Shown: positions 57-60,766 of the stretch, piece by piece
Layout of the letters: each line of letters starts with the position of its first letter
Position numbering within the stretch: the stretch's first letter is position 1
Assembly (NCBI GenBank): GCA_916610825.1
Contig: OU744446.1
Coordinates: 31,138,445 to 31,202,444, forward strand
From: Haliclystus octoradiatus
Lineage: Eukaryota; Cnidaria; Staurozoa; Stauromedusae; Haliclystidae
Direction of reading: 5' to 3'
Length of the DNA: 64,000 nt
Made by a program: the position numbers and the translations under genes
The notes under the pieces: generated by a model
The model's database searches: none
The model's input: the letters and a program-made list of their open reading frames with translations, nothing else
Told to the model about the DNA's origin: nothing

Positions 57-262
57 CCCCTGCAAAAAACAGTTCAGGAGTTCATAAACAGTTCATGAAC
101 GTTAAATGGCTCCAATTTTCCTCAACTGTTCATGACCTGTTCATGAACCCTCGCATACAGTTCATGACCAGTTCATGAACAGTTCATGAAAATTTGGGGT
201 CATTCAACGTTCATGAACTGTTCATGAACTGTTCATGAACTCCTGAACCGTTTTCACAGGGG
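57..262. mobile_element. GTTCATGAAC-family element, full-length copy 1
   Basis: This 206-bp inverted-repeat element has the left end CCCCTGCAAAAAACAGTTCA and the right end mirroring it (TTTTCACAGGGG). TA flanks both sides (55-56 and 263-264). Terminal arms of about 65 bp contain tandem AGTTCATGAAC units, then GTTAAATGGCTCC. It has no coding capacity. It lies 3' of DPH6 exon 13 on the minus strand. Confidence 0.85.
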
Positions 263-429
263 TAGTTCCAAGTTTGAAAAAAGTAAATGATTGAAAATAG
301 CTTACGTTCAGCATCAAATATCTTCTTATAGAATATATAGACTTATACGTATTTAAATCTTTTTCATTATTCTTTACCATTTAACCTCTGCTACCAGAAT
401 CTGTATTAAAATTTGTTGGTGTCACTTAC

Positions 430-3400
430 AACAATTGACTGACTGTAAGGTCCGATATTAGCAGGTGCCCAATCAGATATGGTTTGTACATGCATTGATA
501 GTGGCTTTATTTCTTCTTGTGAGTTCTTCAATGCAATACAACTGATTCTGAATATCTCATCTGAATGATCCGGATATGATTGTAAACAAACCCTAACAAG
601 AAGACAATCATAACAGCGAAATCAAAACAAATTCAAAATGGGTCTCACAAAACATTTTGCAACACATTACAGTACTATTGTTAACATTAACTAATCGAGT
701 TAAAAGCTAGGTGTTTTCATAAATGGCACAAAATAAACGCTCATAAATCAGAGCAATACATAACCTTGGAGCATCAACTCAATATTCTTTTCCTTGCCTA
801 AATAGTGTTATGTTTACTATATTAATAAAATTAATATTTTGCATTTGAGTCCCTTTTACACAATCAGTAGTGGCTTCGGAAATCTAAAATCTGAAATGTT
901 GCTTACAAAGCAATTTCTGTGATGTTTCTATACGAGACAAAAATCAGCTTTATGGATCACTCCATTTACTCGAGAGCATTTAATGTTCGTGAACTGTTCA
1001 TGAAGGTGTTAAGGTGTTCATGAACAGTTCATGAACTCAACAATTTATTTGCAGGGGTAACTTTTCACACAATCAAGACTGAGCTAAGCACATAAAGACT
1101 ACAGGGTTGACTTGGGTCAGTCCAAGAAGAATATAAAAAACAAAATGCACCATTCTCTAATCCACCCTACTATGGGATTGTGTAGCTTCCAAGATGTAAG
1201 TGAATTGGTAACTTGGGATCTGTACAATTTCCAAGTTAAATGGCAGCGAAACGATAGTGTTAGCCTTCTGCCCAGAACAATGTTTCACCATTTATTATAT
1301 TGAATTACTGAGTGGCTCTTAATACATAACAATATTCATCTCAACATTATGACCATCCAATAAGAATTGTTCATGTGAAATATAATGTTTGCTAAAATAT
1401 TATTCTAAAAAAAGAAACAAACCTTGCAGGGGGAGCAACTTCAAAGAAACTACCATAAACAGAATTGATAATTGGATATTGAGACATATCAGCAACATAT
1501 AAATATACCATTAAAACATTCTCAATCGTAGAACCCATTTCCATGAGCATATCTAAGAAACAACATAACAACATGTAACTTTACATTTCTCCAAAACCAC
1601 AGGCATAACAGTGCAAATTGAATACAAATTGATGTTCAGATCAGGGCCACCAAATGAATGCCAAATGGGGCAATTCCCCTGGGGTGTGAGTAAAGCATAG
1701 CCCCTGCGAAAAACAGTTCAGGAGTTCATGAACAGTTCATGAACAGTTCATGAACGTTAAATGGCTCCAATTTTCCTGAACTGTTCATGAACAGTTCATG
1801 AACCCTCACAGACAGTTCATGAACAGTTCATGAACGGTTCATGAACAGTTCATGAAAATTTGAGGCCATTTAACGTTCATGAACTGTTCATGAACTGTTC
1901 ATGAACTCCTGAATTGTTTTCGCATGGAAGGGTCCGCGAGATTTTGTTGCTGCATTTTAATTTTGAATGTGGGATTATATTTGGCAAAAATGTTTTAGAT
2001 AGGAGCAAGAGCAAGTTTTAAGGGGCAGGCAATACTATACATCTGGGTGTTCATACCACTTAATTTAATAGAGGATGTAAAAGAAGGTTATATCATTCTA
2101 GAAAAAAACTAACACTTTGTGGCAGTCTTCTTAGCATAAACTCTTGATATCAAACAAGACACTTATCAAAATAAAATTATTACCTTTCAATTCTGTGAAT
2201 GTTCTCTTAGAGTGTTCTTCGACGGAATTATTATTCATCTTCCAGCATAATATATTAGATACAAATGCATAGTCAGCATTTTGCGCTAAATCATGACAAC
2301 AATCATTTTTTGGTTGCTCTAAACAAGAAGACAATAATAAATTAATAATAATAATGTTTTGTTGAAAATCACAACTGCAAAAACTTGCAGATTTCCAGGC
2401 TCTTTTTATAAATTATAATCTTACTCTCCGTCATTGCCATGACAAGTAAAATATTTCCAATCTTGCGAAAATAGCAGGTTTTACAGATAACTGCACTATG
2501 AGATTTGAAAGTATTAAAAATAATTAATCAGTAATATGTCAGTACATTTTCATTTGCTTTGCCTTTTTCATACAAGACTAGCATTGCTATTGCCATAGTA
2601 GAGTTAACGAATAAATCATGCACAAGTTGGCCATATATTGTCATGCATAAAGTTATATTCATAAACAGATTACACTATTACACAAACAAAATTATTACAA
2701 ATTGTTTTTGATGTCATGATCTGAGCTAACAATACAGTTATTATCCATCAAAACTCACATTCATGAAATCTTAACTCATTGTAAGACAGACTAGAAAGAA
2801 TTCAATAGGTAAGGAAATTTGAAAGTAGTTTCTTATTCAAATACTGTACCATATTTACACAAATTTTACCAGTTGCATACTGTATCAATATCACTCTAAA
2901 TATGCTTACATTTTGCTGGGCAACCTTCAGATACATGTTGTTAAAATACGGAAAGTTTAACCAAATCGAATTCACAACAACTTGACAGAATTGATTACAG
3001 TATATGAATTTCAAAAGAGGTAAATTAAGGCAAATGAAGAACCAAAAGACATTGGCGACAATTTCTATGAAAGCAGCTCATGTTAACGTCCATTTCACGT
3101 TCATGAACAGTTCATTAATTTTTCCATGAACTGTTCATGAATGTTTGTAAACAGTTCATAAACTTGGTGATCCCTGCGAAAAAATTAGTTGGTTTCATGA
3201 ACAGTTCATGAACGTTAAATGGCCATTTTTTTTTTAACTTTTCCCATGAACAGTTCATGAAAATTAAGCCATTTAACTTTCATGAACTGTATTCACAGAG
3301 GATGCATGGAATTTGAATGAGTACACCATCGTAAAAAAGATTCAGAAACGACCTTGTATGTTCACCAGCCACGCTAAATTACATTTATTTTAATATGTTT

Positions 3401-6400
3401 ACAATGATTACCTTGTATTGTTAATTGATTATTACAATGAATAACATGTTATCATGCCCAAAAACCAGACAGTATTGATCAAAAATATTAATTTAATTAC
3501 CTGTATCGATTTGATTAATGATTTCAACTAATTGGCTGTTGTGACCATCATCCTGTCAAAGCAGATCAAAGTATTAAATCAAATTGAAGCGCAATGATCA
3601 ATTAATCCAATTGATTTTCCCCCATAATTATTTAAATGAATAGATTCTTGTTTACTAAGTACCAAGATATTATATGTCAGAAATCAAATATCTTTCCCTT
3701 GCGAAAAATAATTCAGGAGTTCATGAACAGTGAAATGGACATTCTTGAATGCTAAATGGCCCCGATTTTCATGAACAGTTCATGAACCTTCAACAGTTAA
3801 TGAACCTTCCACAACAGTTCATGAACAGTTCATGAAGACTAGGGCCATTTAACGTTCATGAACTGTCCATGAACTCCTGAACTGTTTTTCACAGGGGTTA
3901 TCGCCTACTGATATTACCAAATTGTTAATATGAAACTCATTAATATGAAACTGTATTTAATATCATTTTTTGATAGAAGAACTATTGAAAATGAGTGGAA
4001 TTACCTTATCAATTATTGTGATCTGATCATTTTCAATATTTCTAGCATCAATTAGACATGGTTTAGTTAGCGTCATCATTGGTAATCCTTTGAGACGTTC
4101 TAATAATGTTAAAGTTGGATCCTACAAACAAAAAACAATGAAATAATAACTACAAACGATCATCTCATAGTTGGCTGAGCATTCTCCATGTTACTTCGGT
4201 AACAGTAAAATAGCAACAAATTGACCACTATAGACAAGTAGGCTTTAAATGCAGGGTTGATTCAAAATAATTATCATGTTTATTATTAAAACTTATATAC
4301 AGTTGACCGCAGCATAGAAGTGTCCTTTATTTTACACTGGGTATAAAACCTTGTAATTCATTCAACTAATGCACATGATTAATTAAATGACTATGATAAA
4401 GTTTCAATTGAATAATTGAAAGAAGTGTTTGTGTCAAACACAAAAGTAGGATAGTTTTTTTTAACAATACTGTCCACTGTTGTCCAAATGACTATCACAT
4501 GTTCGTAGAAAATGTTAAAACATATTTGACTGTATCATCTTCCCATATACAAGCATCACACCTCCCCATATCTATCTATACACACCAAACCTTTATCTTT
4601 TAAATTCATTTCAAGACATCTCAGGTATCCAACTTGAGCAAAGGCATCATCAGAATGGACAACTACCTCAGTTTTGACTCTATAAACAATAAATAGTAAA
4701 TACACATCAGTGTTCTCTTAATTTACTGTATCAAAGGAGAGACGTTTTATTGTAATGAAACAGCTTGGACCTGTGAAAAAGTATATAGGTAATTTGTAGG
4801 ATTTCGAATGTGATTCAAAAATTTTGGCAATGCAAAAAGTCAGAATTAAGGGGAGATAATAGCTGACATATAAGTTTTGTAATCAACAAAAATTATTTTC
4901 TTTTCTTTAAAAGAGGTGCAGGTTTTGGTTTCATCTTAACATATAAAAGAGAATTTCCAAAACTGTATGTTATTGTTCATCCATCAATTTGTCATTTTTC
5001 AATCAAATTTTTTGTAACTGATATCATACAGCTGCTGATTTTTTGACCAGGTTATGGAGGAAGTTCTTTTTATAGTTTTACTTCATCCATCCGTTTTATA
5101 GCAAAACAAAACAAATCTTCATTATAGCTTTCTTTAGCGGTTCTGCGCCGCAAAATAACAAAAACAAGGGTCCTCCCCATACAATTCTCATAGCCTTGGC
5201 TTTTCATCACAGGCACTGAAAACGTCATCATCAATATATTATTCTTTTTCGGCTCTCAGCCAATCGGAGGACAATTTGTACATGTGGACAACTTAATTGT
5301 CAATTTTTTGTTTTGTTTTTCGTCATTGAATTCGAAATATTGTGTTCTTTTTGAGAATATGAATGTAACATAAAGTAAAATTGGCAATCACTTTCTGATC
5401 ACCAAGCAACACGGTTAACCCATTGCTAGTATTGTATGTTAATGGCAATTAGCATTTAAAATGTTATGATCATGTCGACATTGTGATTTCACTCAAAAGT
5501 TTAGGAAGCCAAAATTAAAATATTTACCAGAATGAAAATATTTTGTCAAACAATGTGATTACATTTATAACATACAAATATTAACTATCAACTATTACTA
5601 CATCAATCATCATCAAAGTCCAACAAAACCTGGCAACCTATTCTGCGTTCAGAAAGATAATTTCTTCATTTAGTCCGTATGCGTATTGGCGTTGAGTATC
5701 GCATATTAAGTGTTTGTACTGAATTCATAATAAGTAGACATTAAGTAGTACATAGTGTTTCATTTATAATGAAATAAACACTAAACTACTTGCCAATTGT
5801 TTGCATATTTCATTAACCAATCACAACATACACCAAAAAATGGTAATGAAAAGAATAATCAATACAATGAACTAGGCGCTAACAGAAGGACTATACAACG
5901 GAAAAGCTTGTTTGCACTAGAGGTGTATGTTTGGATTTTAAAAAAATTGATCACGGTTACGAATGCGATAGTGATCCAAATTCGATCCGATTATCTTCAT
6001 AAAAATTGGGGCCATTTTATGTTCATGAACTGTTCATGAACTCCTGAACTGTATTTCGCAGGAGTGGTTCTGTGACGAAGGCTACTCTTTTTCTTGCAGA
6101 ATAAATACAGTTAGACAATGCTTATGGTATTCATCATACTTACAGTTCAATTTTCTTTACGAATAGTGGGCAATCCAATGTCAAAGTCTCATATTCACCT
6201 CCTTCGCCACAAACATGACAACCATATTTTTCTTCCTAGAAATTAAAAGTTATGTTTGTATACAGAACCATAGGTAATATTATGCAGCAGTTTCAACTTT
6301 AATTCCAGGTGAAGTTATCACAACATGGGTTTTTAAAATACTGTATTAAATTACATTATTTGTTCTAAGCCAATCAGAACCAATTAGTTTCTATATATAT

Positions 6401-9400
6401 ATTTTTAATGATAATAACTTTCTAATTTCAGTTATGTTATTAAAAGTAAAATATATTGTAGCAGAGACATATTCTGTTATTTAAATTGATATTATGGAGA
6501 AAAAATACATTTTTTCATGAACAGGCATAAATAGTTCATGAAATAGTCATGGTCAAACTGTTTGTGAACTTTTGTGAGCCATGAACTATTGAAACGCCTA
6601 TGAATTGTTAATGAGAATTCAGTGGATGTGAAGTAACAATCTGAAGACATTATGGTTACCTGGAAATGATTGTATTCTATCGAATTAAACCTGTATTTGA
6701 AGCCGATCATGTCAATGGTACATCGTGGAGGCATCTTAGCCCTGGACAAACAATAGCAGCTTTCACACAACAAATCTGTGTGAAACATATCCCGTGTTCA
6801 TGAACAGTTCACAAGGTCCATGAATAGTTTATAAAGTTCATGAACTCTGTAATTTTTTTCGCACTGTGTTATTAAATTCAGAATGTTTAAATTACAAATG
6901 ATTAGTAGAGGTAATCATACTGTTTCGAGTTCAATTTGGTATTAATTTGCACAAGTGGATTTTCCAAAAAGATCAAATTGCAAAACCTGTTTTTGAATTA
7001 CACAAATGTAAATTTGAATTCTGGAATTGAACGAGAAATCGTATGATTACCTTTCAATAATTTCAATAAAAATTTCAAGGGAAATAACGGCGCTAAAGGA
7101 TTGGCCGAAGAAGTGGGATTCGGATTCGTCGTCAAAATAATGAATAATTTATTCCATAACTCAAACTTCTTGATACACACTTTATTGTATAATTAATAAA
7201 GTGCATATGAAATGATAAAAATTGGTGTTAAGGTTTTTACAGACAATAAATCTGCATGTTCATCTTACTACGATGACAATATTTGATTTTTTAAATTGCA
7301 AGTGACAGGCAATGTTTTGATGGCTTAAACATGAGATATTTGCACTAATTTTGGGACATGTCCTGGGTGTTAATTAGAGGATAATACGTAATACGAAGCT
7401 GGAACTCAGGTAAAATATGACAGAAATAGATTTGAGATGAATTTTGAGACAAAAAAGCATAGGCTTCCAGTGGAGCTGCGTAGCAACACGATAATCCTGC
7501 TGATGTGAGGAGAATGTGCTAGAAAGTGGTAAAAGTAAAAGTTACAACTTTGGAGGTATATATAGCTCTTTCTGGAATATGTCCTACTATAAGTAGCTAG
7601 CAGGATCGGGATGAACAGTTAAATTTTTGATGAAAAAAAAGTTGAACGATTCTGGCTTTAGTTTTGCCTGTAGCAATTAAAACGTAGGATGTCGACCGAA
7701 AATCACGGTCAAACTCTCTGGAGGTTAATAATATTGTTCCTTTTTTGGTCTAAAAAGTGGGAAACGAGAATCTCCAAAATACTATGTTCAAGGCAATTTT
7801 GAAGGGAAAGAGTTGCGCTATGCAAAAACGCAACAGTGACATGTACGGATAGCAAAATTCTGTATTATCCAATCCCATTGTGTCATCAAAGGCGATATAT
7901 ACACTTGGGGATAATAGCTTGTCTCTTAGCCAATCATCGAGTAATTTTATCATCTACATTATTACTCCTGCGAAAAACAGTTCATACTTATGAGTTCATG
8001 AACAGTTCATGGACGTTAAATGGTCCCAAATTTCATGTACTGCTCACAAACTGTTCATGAACAGTCTGTAAAGGTTCATAAACTGTCCATGAACAGTTTG
8101 TGAAGGTTCATGAACTGTCCATGAACAGTCTGTGAAGGTTCATGAACTGTTCATGAATAGTTTCGCGGGGATAGCATTTAAAAATGTCCAATGTTTGATC
8201 TATGAAGTAAGGTAGATTTCAATGTGCTGGAAAAATAATAAGCCTTAGGAAGAAACATATTCAATTAGGAATGGCCAATGACAGTAGTTTCCATTTCATT
8301 AATTCAAATCACCAAACACTTTCTTAAATATGACACTATTTCATTATGATAGGGTATACCGAAATATCCAATTGTTCCATATAAGAATATTAGCTCAATT
8401 AAACAAACCGCTATCGAAGTAGGCCCCTACTGTTTTGAGAAATGACTCTTGTCCTTATTTGAGTTACTAAAAATACAATTTTGTTCAACATACCAGATTA
8501 CATAAATGAGAATACATTGACGATAAATCCTTTCCAAGGTGTTTCTGTGGTGAAAGTCCTGCAAATTTAAATGTATTTACAAGTCAGGGTCTTCAGGGAA
8601 GCTTCTAGAATTGTGACCCCTTCTCTTGAAAGTCATATAGTGTTTAAAGTCATGTTTATAACTGCCCAGAGAAATGATTGTAAACGAATTTGGAAGTAAC
8701 TCTCTATATCAATTTCAATTTATTTCAAAGTCCATTCCATTGGTACGCCGCAACTCACTTTATAATGCAATTCTCTCTGGGCCATTCCAGCTGTCATTCT
8801 GCAAAAGTACTCATTTGATGGTTAGCTGACATTTGTGGGATCTAAGTCATATACCATCAGAAGAGGTGTATTCCAATCTGAGCTAATCCCAAATGTAGGC
8901 CTAATACCATATTGTTTATATATATTCTAAGGACAAGAGATAATTTTCAGATATGCATCGTATTTCCAATCAAGCGTGAAAATGCACCTTAATAATTTCT
9001 ACTAAGGGGTTTGTTTATTGAGTAAATGCTTTGAAACACAAAGGAGAGTTCCATAGACCTTCAAATATCAAAATACAAAACTGAAATTGGACACTGCTAT
9101 CATACCTAGGGAGGCCACTTTGATTAAAATAGCATCAACTTGATTGTCAATCATGCTGCTCAGCAAATCCCGTTGATTAAGTCTCCATAAAAATGCAACA
9201 CACTTCAGACCTAAACGTGTACACCTAAAGAAAGTTGAATAAATAACAGAAAACAGGTTTACCTTAATTACCTAATTCATCAACCATATTTTCATCTTAT
9301 TATTCTACCATAACGTCTATCCTAGCAAATTGAGTAGGCCTAGAATTTGTTCAAAAGTTTAATTTCTATTAGAAATCTATATTAGATTTAAGATAATCAA

Positions 9401-12400
9401 ACATAGATTTGGTGGCTAGATGCTAAAATCATCTCATGAAGCTTACTATTACTAGCCTACTAATTGAAAACTGAATAGTTTTATATCTATTAAAATTACA
9501 GAGGCAAACTCACACATGCTCAACTCTGATTCGTTGATAATTGGATAAAACTGCTCCAACAGAAACGGCATCATAATCGATTTCATCCTGCAAAGATGTT
9601 GAATAATTATTTAATGAGATGGGATACCAGTGACACACAAAGAAATATTTTGCTAGCCAGGCGTCCAGACAATGTGTGTTGGTCACTACTTTAGATAGAT
9701 AAACTAAGGTTGATGTTACACAACAATTTGATTCCTAAACTTACTGAGTTTTAATGGAGATTGCCTTGCATTATAGAAGACAATACCAAATCCAAGATGA
9801 AAGTAAGTTCGCTTAGAGAATCTATCAAGACTGTTAGAAGCCTGACTAAAACCCCTGCGAAAAAGTTCATGAATATAAAATGGCATAATTTCTGTGAACT
9901 GTTCAACTGTTCGTAACAGGCTTATGAAAAAGTTCATAAAATATAGATTGTCTCTTGCTCTAGACAGTTTCAGAGGGGTGGGAAAACATGTTTTCCAAAT
10001 TTAAGCATTTTTTCTGTCCGAGCAGAGATTTCTAGATGACCTTTAAACATTTATTCTTTGTATCACGGCAAGAGACATTTCAAATATTGCGAGTCACTCA
10101 ATCTTAGCAAAGTAAAAAGACTTTGACATGAATGGATATGAATTTAGCCTGTTTTCCTTACCTTTATTCTAGATAATAGTGAATATAAATCCTCAACCTC
10201 GTCTTTGGTGACAGTATGATAAATTGAACCGGTTGATTTGGCTGAGCCTAAGATTGGTTCACGATACAAAGGTAATTGGATTGCTTCAGAGTACAACTCA
10301 ATTGCATTATGACCAACCGTCTGATACATATAGCTATCCAGTTCATCTAAAAAAATATACAACATTTATCAATAAAATCATTGATATTACAAAGTTGTAG
10401 GTAATGATGTACATAATCCACTGGTGTCTGTAACTTGTGTGCGTGCATGCTTCATGCTTTTTCCAGAAATATGCATAACTTATCACCTTTTTGACTACAA
10501 CCTCCGCTTACGAGTTTTAGCATCTCGATGTTATAAAAAAATTTCTGGCTTGGCTAAATTTGGCAGTCGCTGTCATGTCATAATTTGACGGAGGCTTTAT
10601 TCCAGACCGAGTTCCAGTAAATTCTAAGAAAGTCTGTATCATCAATGTGATACATATATTGAATTGAAATTAATAAAAATAAGTTTTCAATTTTTAATTT
10701 GAAATTGGTTTATATGTTTGATACTATATATAAACGGTAAAACGGGCCTATCATAAAACATTATAGCTGTCATTAATATCATTAATTTAGCGGCCTTTAA
10801 TGAATGTTCAATAAATCAGATTATTAATAAATTAATTAAGTCTGGAGTAAAGTCCCTATCAATTATGACATGACAGCGATTGCCAAATTTAGCCAAGCCA
10901 GAACTTTTCTCATAACATCGAGACGCTAGAAATTGTAACCGCAGCTTGTGGTCAAAAGGTGATAAATTATGACGTATTTCCTGAAAAGCATGCAGCATGC
11001 ACGCAAGTTACAGACATCAATAATCCAAATCTATTAAGCTAATGTTTTCTATTTGGAATGCAACCTAACCGGCCATTCATATCTAGTTTAGGTAGGCCAT
11101 GTGCTGATCAAGACATTTGCAAAAATGTTTATAGTCTATTGAGCTCAAATTTTTAGATTGCAAAGCCTCTTTGATTATATATTCATTCCATAAATTTTAT
11201 AATTAGTCATGTTTTAGAGAATTTCTAAATTCATATAACATCTAATTCAGGATGCCTCTCAGGGAGTGTTTATAAGAGTCAGGCTAGCCCAGGTGACAGC
11301 AAGACAAACTGTCTTGCCGCCTGTTTATATGCAAATATCATCCCACCTTCAACCCGGCATATTTTATAGGATTGCCTTGCTTTCTAGATTTGTATCTGAG
11401 CTTCATTTTTATGTCTTCAAATTTTTCAATGAAAATAACAAATAAGAATTTATAGCTGAATTTAAGCATTATATTATTGACTGATTAATATTGAGTGTTA
11501 TACTAAAGCAAATGGTGACTGTTGACTGATATTTTTTAAGGCTATCTATTTGGCGCACTTGAGCAAATGAAGCAAAACAAACCCGGGCTGACCAGCCAAA
11601 GTCTGTTTACATGGAGAATTCCTGTCTCAGCCAGGTAGGATCAGGTGAGATACCACCTGGGAGTGCTAGCCCAGAAACCCTATTATAAAGTCACCGCAGA
11701 GAAACAATAAAGAACAATAATAGAGAAAAAAATAGAGAACAATAATAGATGTGGATCTCATTAAGATGTGTCGCCTCACCTTGCCGGGCTGGTCTACCTT
11801 ATGTAAGCACCCCATTAATATTTAAATAAATAGATAATTTACAAGTACATTCTAGTCCACACTGTTAAAATTCCCTAAGGAGATGATCATATTTGATAAC
11901 TTGATCACTTCGATCTAACTCTAGCAAAATCATTAAAATAATTGATAGCGATACCTTCTTCCACTATCACAAAGTAAAAAACCTGTTTTATGCAATATAA
12001 ATTGTTTTATATGTTTTTTCAAATAAATGCTACTGTGTACTTTGGTTTGTACATTTTGAAATCGGGGAAATGTCTGAAAAACATTATTTTGAGATTCTAA
12101 TGTCAAGAATAATATTATAGGCCTACTGACATAAAAATCAATCCTGAAAATAAATAGTTGTATAACTTGTGTTATCTAAATAACTCATTGAGAATGATGA
12201 TGGAGTGCTTAACTATATACAGGAAATTGTCAAGTGATTGTCAAATCCACTGTGAAAAACAGTTTATGAGCTCATGAACAGTCAAAGAGTTCATGAACTG
12301 TTCATAAACGTCAAATGGCCTCTATGAATTTTTTTATGAACCTTTCATGTTTATTCATGAATTTTCATAAATAGTTCATGAATTGCCATATTAATCTTCA

Positions 12401-14164
12401 CAAACAAGTTCATGAACTGATGAACAGTGGTCAATGGCATCAAGATAAGAAGCAGATATTTTTATACCTAGCTTTTGAGGATAAAGATTAGCCAATGCAA
12501 CAATATCATGACCATAAGCAACACATTTCATAAGATTGAAAAGGCTGTCTTTACCACCACTATTCAAATATAAATAAAGACTTAATATCAAGACATTTTT
12601 CAAATATAAAACATATATACATGTGTGTAGGTTATCTCTACTAAACCTGGCCAGAAGCTAAAACGTTACAACATCAATAATTGATCAAACTTGAAGTTTA
12701 TACAAAACAAGTTCAGTTCCACATTCTATAACCTGGGTAACGTAAGGAATGTAAACGTTGGAGTGCCGGTCTATCTTTAGAAAACTCAATCTCTAGAAAA
12801 CACTACAATTTAACTTAAATTTCAATCATATATGGCCAACAAGGTGTCCCAAAGATATGGACATATCTGTTCTGGAAAGTGGACAAAATCTTTTTCGTGA
12901 GGAAAAAGTTACGATTTTGAATGCACTTTCAAAGGAGCATTATTTGTGAGATATGGTACTTTCGACATACGGAAAATTGTTGTCATCAAATGGAATGTTC
13001 CTATTTATTTTGCATGGGCTAAATCTATTCCGGATAAACATTTTTTGGTGTCATGTGCACTTTAAACCAGCAAAGACTACCTAAGTACCTTAATCTTACT
13101 ATTTATATATTTACATATTTTTATCCGCGTATCTTTATTCTTTATTCTTTACATATAGTTTTCATTAATTTTAAAATGCGTTTGCAGCATAATAAAGTCA
13201 TGAATACAAAAACAGAACAGCACTCTACTGACACTGACTGGCACACTGGCAACACACTGTTCTGTCTGTCTATCGATCTGCACACAAGTGGGCTCTCCGT
13301 ATGCCATGGTAATAACGTATGCACGCACACCAAATTTTTGCAACTTCACACGTTAGTGGCATAATGCAATGGACATTTCAAAATCAAAGCATTCAACCAA
13401 CAGCACTTGGAATCCAGATTGGAAAGAATGCATTAATTGCGCGGCCAAGGTGGTATTTTTTCTTGGAAAATGTGCGGCTGAAAGCCAAATATTGGTGTAA
13501 CTTTGCGCGGGTGGATCACATATGTTGTCAAATATTAGATATAACAACTAAATAATCATGGAGATTATGTCATTTTCTTAGAAAATACGGATAAAATTAT
13601 GAAATGCGTGGCTGGAATTGCAGCCACGAAAATGATTGCGCGGCCAAGATTTTACCCGGAAACAGCAAACTTTTCAGTCTGGCTTGGAATTGATTCAACG
13701 TTGAAATTGAATTTTTTAGCTGCACATGTCAAGTTTGAACATGAAAACAGTGTGTTTGCTATTAGGCCTATTCGAGGTTGGGACAATTCAAAATAGGTAA
13801 TCAGGATTGATTTCTTAAAATGGGGGTTTGGGGTGCACCCAACCCCTAGCCCTAGGAGAAATATTTGAATTGAATTCTGATGTCTCAAATTATAGCAAAT
13901 TTCGTTATAACTTCAACAGTTAACTCAAATATGCTATAAAATCTTTTAATGTTTTTATTTTTGTATAACGACTAGCAAACAGCGAATGTGGCATCACATT
14001 CACACATGCCATTCCGGATTACGGTCATTCCGTGATCGTGATTTCGTTCACCGATCCGTCATCGTCAATTCGTCATATTCCCGAAATTTCCCTATGGCCT
14101 ATATCAGTCATTCAAGTTTAGTAGTTGTAATCCAGGCCTACCTCACTAAAGCAACAACTTTCAT
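430..14164 (-). CDS. DPH6: Diphthine--ammonia ligase with C-terminal RidA-like domains (partial, C-terminus off window)
   Basis: This enzyme performs the last step of diphthamide synthesis, the ATP-dependent amidation of diphthine on the eEF2 histidine, in the cytosol. Thirteen minus-strand exons were assembled, with GT-AG sites and matching phases: 14142-14164, 12468-12559, 10162-10346, 9514-9587, 9106-9224, 8494-8558, 6144-6235, 4586-4679, 4005-4121, 3501-3552, 2184-2318, 1423-1552 and 430-592 (1341 nt, 447 codons). The PP-loop SGGKDS (residues 8-13) is split between exons 1 and 2. HDIVALANL, DELDSYMYQTVG, LSNYQRIRVE and CGEGGEYET (about 195-203) are family signatures. Exons 11-12 look RidA/YjgF-like (VYLYVADMSQYP, ending near APPAR). 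Exon 13 ends in WAPANIGPYSQ, the start of a second RidA unit. The known human protein is about 267 residues without RidA domains; the yeast protein carries them. The start is the only in-phase ATG found for MKVVALVS. Exon 8 uses the donor GTGTGT, because the earlier GTTTGG breaks the frame. Confidence 0.9.
981..1057. mobile_element. GTTCATGAAC-family element, partial
   Basis: This contains GTTCATGAACAGTTCATGAAC and a right end GCAGGGG followed by TA. The left end is lost. It lies in a DPH6 intron. Confidence 0.7.
1701..1927. mobile_element. GTTCATGAAC-family element, full-length copy 2
   Basis: This begins CCCCTGCGAAAAACAGTTCA, with three tandem AGTTCATGAAC units in each arm. The right end is slightly decayed (TTTTCGCATGG). 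It lies in the DPH6 intron between exons 12 and 11. Confidence 0.85.
3085..3303. mobile_element. GTTCATGAAC-family elements, two adjoining decayed copies
   Basis: A partial copy (about 3085-3165) is followed by a short copy starting CCCTGCGAAAAAATTAG (3172) and ending TATTCACAGAGG. Confidence 0.65.
3696..3897. mobile_element. GTTCATGAAC-family element, full-length copy 3
   Basis: The left end CCCTTGCGAAAAATAATTCA and the right end TGTTTTTCACAGGGG are mirror images. About 200 bp, in a DPH6 intron. Confidence 0.8.
4700..6007. other. DPH6 intron between exons 8 and 7
   Basis: No repeat or exon was recognised. The frame at 5797-6039 has no domain features and runs into the 6008 repeat fragment. 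Confidence 0.35.
6008..6066. mobile_element. GTTCATGAAC-family element, right-end fragment
   Basis: GGGGCCATTTTATGTTCATG is followed by AACTGTTCATGAACTCCTG and TTTCGCAGGAG. Only one arm remains, ending 78 bp from DPH6 exon 7. Confidence 0.7.
6510..6870. mobile_element. GTTCATGAAC-family sequence, decayed
   Basis: Scattered TTCATGAAC-like units occur at both edges (6515-6600 and 6795-6860), ending TTTTTTTCGCACTG. The unrelated interior suggests an insertion or two fragments. Confidence 0.45.
6871..7964. other. DPH6 intron between exons 7 and 6
   Basis: Several short open frames occur (6998, 7750, 7836), none with domain or splice support. No repeat was identified. Confidence 0.35.
7965..8170. 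mobile_element. GTTCATGAAC-family element, full-length copy 4 with internal tandem units
   Basis: This begins CTCCTGCGAAAAACAGTTCA after TA (7963-7964) and ends TTTCGCGGGG. The middle holds about three imperfect 35-bp tandem units with CTGTCCATGAACAGT and GTGAAGGTTCATGAA. It lies in a DPH6 intron. Confidence 0.8.
8741..8890 (-). mobile_element. Diverged SINE copy
   Basis: The reverse complement reads GGGATTAGCTCAGATTGG (A box region), CATCAAATGAGTAC, TGGAATGGCCCAGAG and GAATTGCATTATAAAGTGAG, matching the SINE at 28140 in order. The B box region is altered and the tail is missing. Confidence 0.7.
9852..9978. mobile_element. GTTCATGAAC-family element, shortened
   Basis: The left end CCCCTGCGAAAAAGTTCATG and the right end CAGTTTCAGAGGGG are kept. 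The repeat units between them are mostly decayed. Confidence 0.65.
10421..11019. mobile_element. hAT-like foldback element, copy 1 (599 bp)
   Basis: Arms of about 190 bp (starting CTGGTGTCTGTAACTTG) are inverted around an AT-rich centre. ATAATCCA flanks it exactly on both sides (10413-10420 and 11020-11027). An 8-bp duplication indicates a hAT-type transposase. It lies within the DPH6 intron between exons 2 and 3. A second copy is at 27720-28792. Confidence 0.8.
11256..11815. repeat. Probable degenerate MITE
   Basis: The left end GGGAGTGTTTATAAGAG with GCTAGCCCAGGTGA resembles the reverse complement of the right end (CACCTTGCCGGGCTGG, then TTATGTAAGCACCCC). Internal segments repeat TGCTAGCCCAG. 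The boundaries are approximate and no duplication was found. Confidence 0.45.
11820..12245. other. DPH6 intron remainder
   Basis: AT-rich; nothing recognised. Confidence 0.3.
12246..12440. mobile_element. GTTCATGAAC-family element adjoining DPH6 exon 2
   Basis: CTGTGAAAAACAGTTTATGA opens the copy and CAAGTTCATGAACTGATGAAC closes it, 28 bp from the splice donor of DPH6 exon 2 (12468). Internal units are partly decayed. Confidence 0.65.
12560..13412. other. First DPH6 intron, no recognised element
   Basis: Overlapping open frames on both strands at 13053-13364 come from low-stop sequence and show no domain. Confidence 0.35.
13413..13690 (+). repeat. Dispersed repeat, copy 1
   Basis: This is related along its length to 28793-29046. 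ATTGCGCGGCCAAG occurs twice within it. It lies in the first intron of DPH6. Confidence 0.7.
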
Positions 14165-22486: not shown

Positions 22487-23183
22487 CGGTAAGCAGAATA
22501 TTCAACAGGCTGCAGGGCGTCATGCGCAGTAGAACCCTGTCCCGTCTGATAATTTTGGCCACATCTGAAAACATCTCGCACTTTACTTCGTTTTGATTTG
22601 AATTTCAAATTTTGACTTGACTTTGAGATTTCTTATGGCCAGAAAAAATGGCGGTCTTGTCGGAAATTGATGAGATTGAAGATTCAACATAAAGACTTTC
22701 GACAATCGTCATATAATATATTTTGTGTAGAAATGAAGTTCTTATCCTGCTCATCGTAGAATTCCAGTATAATTGATGTTTTCTTTGCTCGTCAACGCTG
22801 TTGATATATAGATCTATAGCCCAATATAATGAGCTGAAAATGTAGACTAACTTAATCATTATCAAGAGACGTTGGCTCCTTTTTATGTAGCCTGAAATTC
22901 GGACAGGGTAAGAGAAGATGTTTGAAGAATTAACATACAATAAGGTGTAACCTAACTCAGCTTTTAATAGTTAGATTTCAATATCACAAGCTTTTGATTC
23001 AAAACACGATTAGACAAATAGCCTGACATTAAAAAGTAAGTTCTAAGGAATTCTCAATCAACTAGGCCCAATAATGATAGCTCGCCTAGTGAGTCACTGT
23101 CTATATTATAATGTGATATATTTTGTCAACTTAAGTTAACATTGAAAGGTGAATAAAATAAATTTCCTGGCCTCCACTTACAT
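22487..23183 (-). repeat. Left arm of a 698-bp inverted duplication
   Basis: This stretch is the reverse complement of 29222-29919 with very few differences. The open frame in each arm encodes the same 111 residues apart from one Gly/Ser change. The outer part is relatively GC-rich (CTGCAGGGCGTCATGCGC) and contains AAAATGGCGG, as seen at many gene starts, but the frame closes after 14 codons. A diverged copy follows at about 23735-24135, so the sequence belongs to a repeat family rather than being only a local duplication. Confidence 0.8.
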
Positions 23184-29221: not shown

Positions 29222-29919
29222 ATGTAAGTGGAGGCCAAAACTTTCCTTTATTCACCCTTCAATCTCAACTTTAGTTGACAAAATATATCACATTATAATA
29301 TAAACAGTGACTCATTAGGCGAACTATCATTATTGGGCCTAGTTGATTGAGAATTCCTAACTTACTTTTTAATGTCAGGCTATTTGTCTAATCGTGTTTT
29401 GAATCAAAAACTTTTGATATTGGAATCTAATCATTAAAAGATGAGTTAGGTTACACCTTATTGTATGTTAATTCTTCAAACATCTTCTCTTACCCTGTCC
29501 GAATTTCAAGCTACATAAAAAGAAGCCAACGTCTCTTGATAATGATTAAGTTAGTCTACATTTTCAGCTCATTATATTGGGCTATAGATCTATATATCAA
29601 CAGCGTTGACGAGCAAAGAAAACATCAATTATACTGGAATTCTACGATGAGCAGGATAAGAACTTCATTTCTACACAAAATATATTATATGACGATTGTC
29701 GAAAGTCTTTATGTTGAATCTTCAATCTCATCAATTTCCGACAAGACCGCCATTTTTTCTGGCCATAAGAAATCTCAAAGTCAAGTCAAAATTTGAAATT
29801 CAAATCAAAAAAACGAAATAAAGTGCGAGATGTTTTCAGATGTGGCCAAAATTATCAGACGGGGGACAGGGTTCTACTGCGCATGACGCCCTGCAGCCTG
29901 TTGAATATTCTGCTTACCG
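29222..29919 (+). repeat. Right arm of the 698-bp inverted duplication
   Basis: This is the near-identical inverted partner of 22487-23183, about 6 kb away. It ends about 950 bp before the first recognised ICE1 exon, so it may include or replace part of that gene's promoter region. Confidence 0.8.

Positions 29920-30869: not shown

Positions 30870-60766
<29,897 letters not shown>

Follow-up and report, generated by a model that had tools for sequence, protein, structure and literature searches.

A stretch of 64,000 nucleotides from Haliclystus octoradiatus (C1:31138445-31202444, hereafter the window) contains an inverted-repeat element, represented by about 14 copies or remnants that were recognized by eye and by motif searches, with arms that consist of short units repeated at an 11-bp period. 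What could these units be for? A preliminary description of this DNA, whose count of about 13 copies is close to ours, had proposed that they form half-sites for nuclear receptors. In our interpretation, which is the probable one on the evidence presented below, the copies belong to a family of cut-and-paste miniature inverted-repeat transposable elements (MITEs) with foldback-like, repetitive arms, in which the GTTCATGAAC units represent putative binding sites for the transposase or a helper protein, and direct repeats of half-sites spaced by 5 or 2 bp (DR5 and DR2) are by-products. As a MITE family with foldback-like arms, the element is ordinary in kind and this classification is well supported; the combination of palindromic 11-bp units with a nearly free 2-bp target is unusual.

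Tips, target duplication and abundance

The end statistics were obtained from 262,020 bases, made up of the window and 20 further stretches of the same contig, each 9.9 kb long and chosen to surround exact ends, within a searched genome of 261.9 Mb in 33 contigs. Searching for 12-bp tips with up to two mismatches yielded 85 forward and 82 reverse ends and, at distances of 24-1,200 bp, 49 adjacent pairs. The flanking 2 bp were identical in 35 of these pairs, compared to a mean of 5.9 and a maximum of 14 in 2,000 shuffles of the flanks. Longer agreement was practically absent, as none of the 49 pairs agreed over 3, 5 or 6 bp and a single one over 4 bp. The 35 duplications comprise nine kinds, namely TA (7), TT (6), TG (6), AA (5), AT (5), CA (2), CT (2), AG (1) and TC (1). 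Genome-wide, the exact 20-bp end occurs 1,553 times (812 + 741), compared to no occurrence of a reversed-pattern control, and the dinucleotide in front of it is TA in 377 and AT in 214 cases. The target is hence 2 bp long and nearly free in sequence, though biased towards A+T, and the earlier statement that intact copies are flanked by TA has to be given up, as 28 of the 35 duplications are not TA and only 377 of the 1,553 exact ends follow TA. A plain satellite, which we also considered, was rejected on account of the duplication and the fixed tips in 35 of the 49 end pairs.

The 35 pairs with an exact 2-bp duplication, which together span 6,111 bp, constitute the bounded copies on which all counts of anatomy are based; the other 14 pairs, some of which may be chance pairs or decayed copies, were left out of them. 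Over the 70 ends of the bounded copies, the tips CCCCTGYGAAAA...TTTTCRCAGGGG are conserved with 77-100% agreement per base, although the picking of loci by exact 20-bp ends biases the conservation of one end per locus upward. The tips begin with CCCC, so that the ends of the element read CC..GG. With a span of 66-545 bp, the bounded copies are too short for a transposase. The features by which MITEs are recognized, namely terminal inverted repeats, a target duplication of fixed length, and short size together with high copy number, are thus all found, as are the inverted arms of tandem repeats, with unit arrays on both sides, that characterize foldback-like elements.

Exact two-unit sites number 6,283 in the genome. 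Sequences on other large contigs or at distant positions of the same contig are 97-98% identical over 203-204 of 206 bp (among the 40 of 2,573 candidates that were scored), and such near-identical distant copies suggest recent movement. The copies are clustered, since only three of eight 5-kb stretches taken at arbitrary places of six other contigs held at least one core (up to one mismatch), and one of them held 25.

Arm units and their possible binding partners

The 10-bp core GTTCATGAAC is identical to its own reverse complement, as had been noted before, and repeats at an 11-bp period. Among the 163 exact cores of the bounded copies, a spacing of 11 bp is commonest (51 cases), followed by 38 bp (16) and 21 bp (14), and the linker base between cores spaced by 11 bp is A in 30 cases, T in 20 and G in one. 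The modules share one order, which runs from the tip through CAGTTCAGGA, units, GTTAAATGGC plus a short spacer, further units and an optional CCTCACAGAC into the mirror image; CAGTTCAGGA and the CAGTTCATGA of the unit are one base apart and can be confused at two mismatches. The number of exact cores per bounded copy varies from none in one to 21 in another, and the three smallest copies (66-77 bp) keep their tips together with two or three units that carry up to two mismatches. The view of the arms as tandem arrays consequently stands as far as inverted arms of GTTCATGAAC units are concerned, but not all of these arrays are long.

What speaks for a role of the units in transposition is their position. 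The first core (up to two mismatches) starts at base 23 or 24 in 51 of the 70 ends, and 34 of the 35 copies have a core no more than 40 bp from each of their ends, compared to 6 of 70 flank controls in which one was present at the same offset outside the elements. GTTAAATGGC (up to one mismatch) is present in 28 and CCTCACAGAC (up to two) in 15 of the 35 copies. In other words, hardly any copy has lost the units near either tip, and the other modules are optional. Because of this fixed distance from the tip, their presence near both ends and the optional nature of the remaining modules, the units fit subterminal transposase-binding sites such as those of Galileo (PMC3688188), and we infer that they are recognized by the transposase or by a helper protein.

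Several observations weigh against this interpretation. An exact duplication is absent from 14 of the 49 end pairs, and the first core starts elsewhere in 19 of the 70 ends (at base 15 or 16 in 12, at other positions in 7). In addition, exact ends, whose sequence includes AGTTCA, guided the choice of 20 of the 21 sampled stretches, so that the end statistics are biased upward. Searches of the listed ends on C1 and of two further loci (L039, the one scanned for open reading frames, and L040) revealed no transposase with the tips of the family, and none of the 30 matches to PHIS or CACTA transposases on C1 comes closer than 10 kb to any of the 168 distinct ends listed there (nearest 11,005 bp), which is weak evidence, as the list covers all exact ends as far as 11.6 Mb and, from there on, only those preceded by TA or AT. 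Neutral slippage, lastly, could also make such arrays.

The last point can be extended to an explanation of its own, which we regard as rather unlikely, namely that the units bind nothing particular and are multiplied by slippage and hairpin-driven repair, with a transposase that needs the tip alone. Insertions and deletions of whole units are indeed common: of the 236 indels of 8 nt or more counted in pairwise comparisons, 116 have a length divisible by 11, compared to about 21.5 by chance, where the pairs are not independent of each other. The mean difference among 13 copies of 193-249 bp is 13.3% (3.9-26.4%). One bounded copy with an AT duplication (L027:4051-4595) contains a 70-bp tandem array of 6.3 units with 98% identity, which may be an incipient satellite within a MITE. 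Folding energies would also suit such a scenario, as 12 copies of 85-249 bp gave values of -32 to -155 kcal/mol and the three of 202-206 bp (-96, -109 and -130 kcal/mol) are far stabler than 25 random 206-mers (mean -37.5, minimum -61.5 kcal/mol). What speaks against arrays that bind nothing is the presence of units near both tips in 34 of 35 copies and their fixed start at 51 of 70 ends, while the other modules vary.

If the units are indeed sites of the transposition machinery, GTTCATGAAC would be bound, at intervals of roughly one helical turn from each tip towards the interior, by a symmetric and presumably dimeric DNA-binding domain, which could belong to the transposase itself or to a helper protein, and several bound dimers would bring both ends of the element together. 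The arrays would lengthen and shorten mostly by whole 11-bp units, via slippage or unequal exchange. Sequence and period of the unit would then give rise to DR5 and DR2 half-sites as by-products, some of which may be bound by host nuclear receptors without any selection for this binding. In that case, the copies, with none to 21 exact cores, would represent a natural series to find out how many recognition sites are needed per end, and the same series would bear on how arrays turn into satellites.

The half-sites themselves are abundant. Counted on both strands, the 35 copies contain 271 AGTTCA (44 per kb), compared to 0.6 per kb at positions 13001-48000 of the window, and pairs of this hexamer comprise 83 DR5, 39 DR2, 31 DR13 and 9 DR15 with few others. 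The spacing, the loss of which would have refuted the preliminary description, is maintained, with at least one DR5 in 27 of 35 copies, and enriched over shuffled elements, with no DR5 in 100 dinucleotide shuffles. Its emphasis on DR5 was literally right and has to be widened to DR2, and the inverted AGTTCA/TGAACT repeats without spacer that it described do occur, but merely 9 times with both halves exact. Direct repeats of RGKTCA spaced by 1, 2 or 5 bp, by which retinoic acid response elements are defined, are thus found, as DR5 and DR2 of AGTTCA.

One could therefore imagine that the arms are response elements of RAR/RXR and that selection keeps DR5 and DR2 sites across introns, a possibility that we consider improbable. 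There is precedent in the Alu repeats, which according to one account spread DR2 sites, some of them recruiting RARs (PMC1785376). However, any hexamer in such an array forms a DR5, because the period is 11 and the half-site has 6 bases, and the argument that DR5 spacing is in itself unlikely was rejected for this reason. RGKTCA is contained in 1.3% of random palindromic 11-bp arrays (1.7% without the palindrome constraint), so that the coincidence of unit and receptor half-site is a mild one. Moreover, AGGTCA occurs merely twice in the 6,111 bp, next to 28 GGTTCA and 2 GGGTCA. The mismatch rates also weigh against this reading, being 25/580 (0.043) for the first unit and 29/500 (0.058) for the second, near those of the tip (54/840, 0.064) and of CAGTTCAGGA (42/660, 0.064), in a rough comparison in which match thresholds lower the rates of modules and units, and the choice of loci lowers that of the tip. 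The units are about as well preserved as the tips, and there is no clear sign of extra selection on half-sites. The position of the units, locked to the tips, likewise points to transposition.

A combined scenario, in which the transposition signal of the family doubles as a DR5/DR2 site of RAR/RXR, so that thousands of receptor-ready arrays would provide a regulatory network or a host receptor would serve the transposon as helper protein, appears to us a long shot as well. If receptors do bind, the family would constitute an invertebrate counterpart of the Alu DR2 case.

Copies and neighbours in the window

In the window, AGTTCATGAAC has 99 matches at up to one mismatch on both strands, compared to 2.3 expected, and the 20-bp end has 8 at up to three mismatches, compared to 0.01 expected. 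About 11 copies or remnants (one of them doubtful) are located at 57-12,430 and three at 48.4-57.1 kb. An exact 2-bp duplication is seen in three of the five end pairs of the window (TA, AG and TT), a further copy at 7965-8171 is flanked by TA as judged by eye, and all others are decayed or truncated. The copies and remnants are as follows, with no strand assigned to any of them:

57..262: complete copy of 206 bp with 6 exact cores and a TA target duplication
984..1057: remnant with the right end only, a unit array followed by TTTGCAGGGG (partly by eye)
1701..1928: complete copy of 228 bp with 11 exact cores and an AG target duplication
3098..3301: decayed copy or copies, with an end pair at 3171-3301 that has no exact duplication
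3696..3897: complete copy of 202 bp with 4 exact cores and a TT target duplication
6001..6064: right part of a copy whose left part is missing (motif matches)
6515..6610: doubtful remnant, scattered imperfect units and no tip (by eye)
6790..6867: right part of a further copy, decayed (by eye)
7965..8171: copy with a diverged right tip and an internal 32-bp tandem array, duplication TA by eye
9852..9978: decayed copy of 127 bp that lacks an exact duplication
12247..12428: decayed copy with 3 mismatches in its left tip and a right tip placed by eye
48425..48592: diverged remnant, left end blurred (by eye)
48751..48880: diverged remnant with left tip, right end blurred (motif matches and by eye)
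56966..57055: short diverged copy, right tip by eye

The preliminary description had placed nine or ten copies in the introns and on the 3' side of DPH6 and the others in introns of ICE1; neither name was confirmed. The exon at 12391-12657 (reverse strand), which contains SGGKDS, resembles DPH6 by eye only and received no support for this label from Pfam or from a PDB sequence search, and the large open reading frame (ORF) at 53699-56653, previously called ICE1, has no Pfam match.

Other repeats occur alongside. Two arms of about 150 bp, mutually inverted, at 10430-11030 look by eye like another inverted-repeat element, and near-identical ORFs of 121 aa at 22605-22970 (reverse) and 29431-29796 (forward) represent a dispersed repeat present twice in the window. 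A 249-bp tandem duplication, its two copies 96% alike, lies at 36168-36666. Between 38838 and 43566, four long TAA arrays alternate with ORFs at 39569-40642 and 41884-42642, which by eye resemble a reverse-transcriptase element whose end is GIY-YIG-like; one of these ORFs was compared with Pfam and has no match. A similar mix of TAA arrays and ORFs is found at the locus L041. Within 43780-44290, 500 bases read as N, and an ORF at 45053-45757 (reverse) matches reverse transcriptase (PF00078, E 1.3e-7).

The missing transposase and known systems

Two kinds of transposase were searched for in the genome. PHIS (PF13359) gave at least 150 matches, as 150 of 414 candidates were scored and all of them matched, and CACTA (PF02992) gave 36, of which 26 and 4, respectively, are on C1. 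L039 and L040, where exact ends are 5.4 and 0.6 kb apart, contain short copies or unpaired ends, with no ORF of at least 100 aa in L039, and two TA-flanked end pairs on C1 (33253537-33256861 and 34224028-34228667) enclose no listed match to PF13359 or PF02992.

The middle 35% of C1 (13.3-27.2 Mb, limits chosen post hoc) holds 10 of 108 exact ends preceded by TA or AT, compared to 17 of the 30 PHIS or CACTA matches. Twelve PF13359 matches on several contigs share the same score (180 bits) and a 525-aa open frame without stop, which looks like a recently active PHIS family. An open frame with a THAP domain (PF05485, E 8e-12) at L018:12-566, which could belong to a host gene or to a transposon, lies about 4 kb from a bounded copy.

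The abundance of PHIS transposases, together with TA as the commonest duplication (7 of 35) and as the dinucleotide in front of 377 of the 1,553 ends, could be taken to mean that a known TA- or AT-specific family, i.e. Tc1/mariner or ISL2EU, made the copies. This is highly improbable, as 28 of the 35 duplications are not TA, 30 are not AT, and AT precedes only 214 of the 1,553 ends. Tc1/mariner, with its TA-specific insertion, was rejected on the former count. ISL2EU, a PHIS group, was rejected because it is described as duplicating AT, which accounts for 5 of 35 duplications here, and as having tips that usually begin with GG (PMC4482050), whereas those of the present family begin with CCCC. 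For piggyBac, the TTAA duplication (PMC2872659) is at odds with the nine kinds of 2-bp duplication found here. A CACTA/EnSpm (CMCT) origin agrees with the family in its duplication of 2-5 bp but not in its tips, which are given as CA..TG in most cases (PMC12730594) and read CC..GG here.

A Mutator- or P-type foldback would have duplicated about 7-10 bp, where the present family duplicates 2 bp and none of the 49 pairs agree over 5 or 6; the P superfamily itself duplicates 7-8 bp. The pattern of tip and target (CCCC, 2 bp nearly free) thus agrees in full with the definition of no superfamily among those compared, and the missing transposase is hence worth finding. The literature matches listed by a string search contain only GTTCATGAAC or CCCCTGCGAAAA, none of them is by its title about the element, and neither the two-unit strings nor the 14-base tip occur among them; topic searches returned relatives in kind rather than the present family, and in both cases absence from the literature is unproven.

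Among known systems, Galileo likewise has inverted-repeat arms with internal tandem repeats, which are reported to hold extra binding sites for the THAP domain of its transposase within the terminal inverted repeats (PMC3688188). Its arms exceed 1 kb, whereas whole copies measure 66-545 bp here and the unit is an 11-bp palindrome. Tetris, a foldback element of Drosophila virilis, resembles the family in that no transposase was found and in that the tandem repeats of its arms are able to seed satellites (PMC4079207), but it duplicates 8-10 bp, has 220-bp repeats and has been placed near Mutator. MITEs of the piggyBac type, such as the coral CMITEs, share CCCT-rich tips, and piggyBac has a palindromic repeat near each end (PMC2872659, PMC11707139), yet they duplicate TTAA instead of a nearly free 2 bp (PMC2872659). 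The palindromic end motif of piggyBac is described as being bound by two cysteine-rich domains, and several transposon systems are said there to need arrays of transposase sites, whereas in cases such as piggyBat an additional site can also be inhibitory (PMC11707139). The Alu DR2 elements, finally, are likewise a repeat family with many direct repeats of RGKTCA; they are, however, short interspersed nuclear elements with chromatin immunoprecipitation evidence for some copies (PMC1785376), whereas the arrays of the present family are predicted sites within a DNA transposon.

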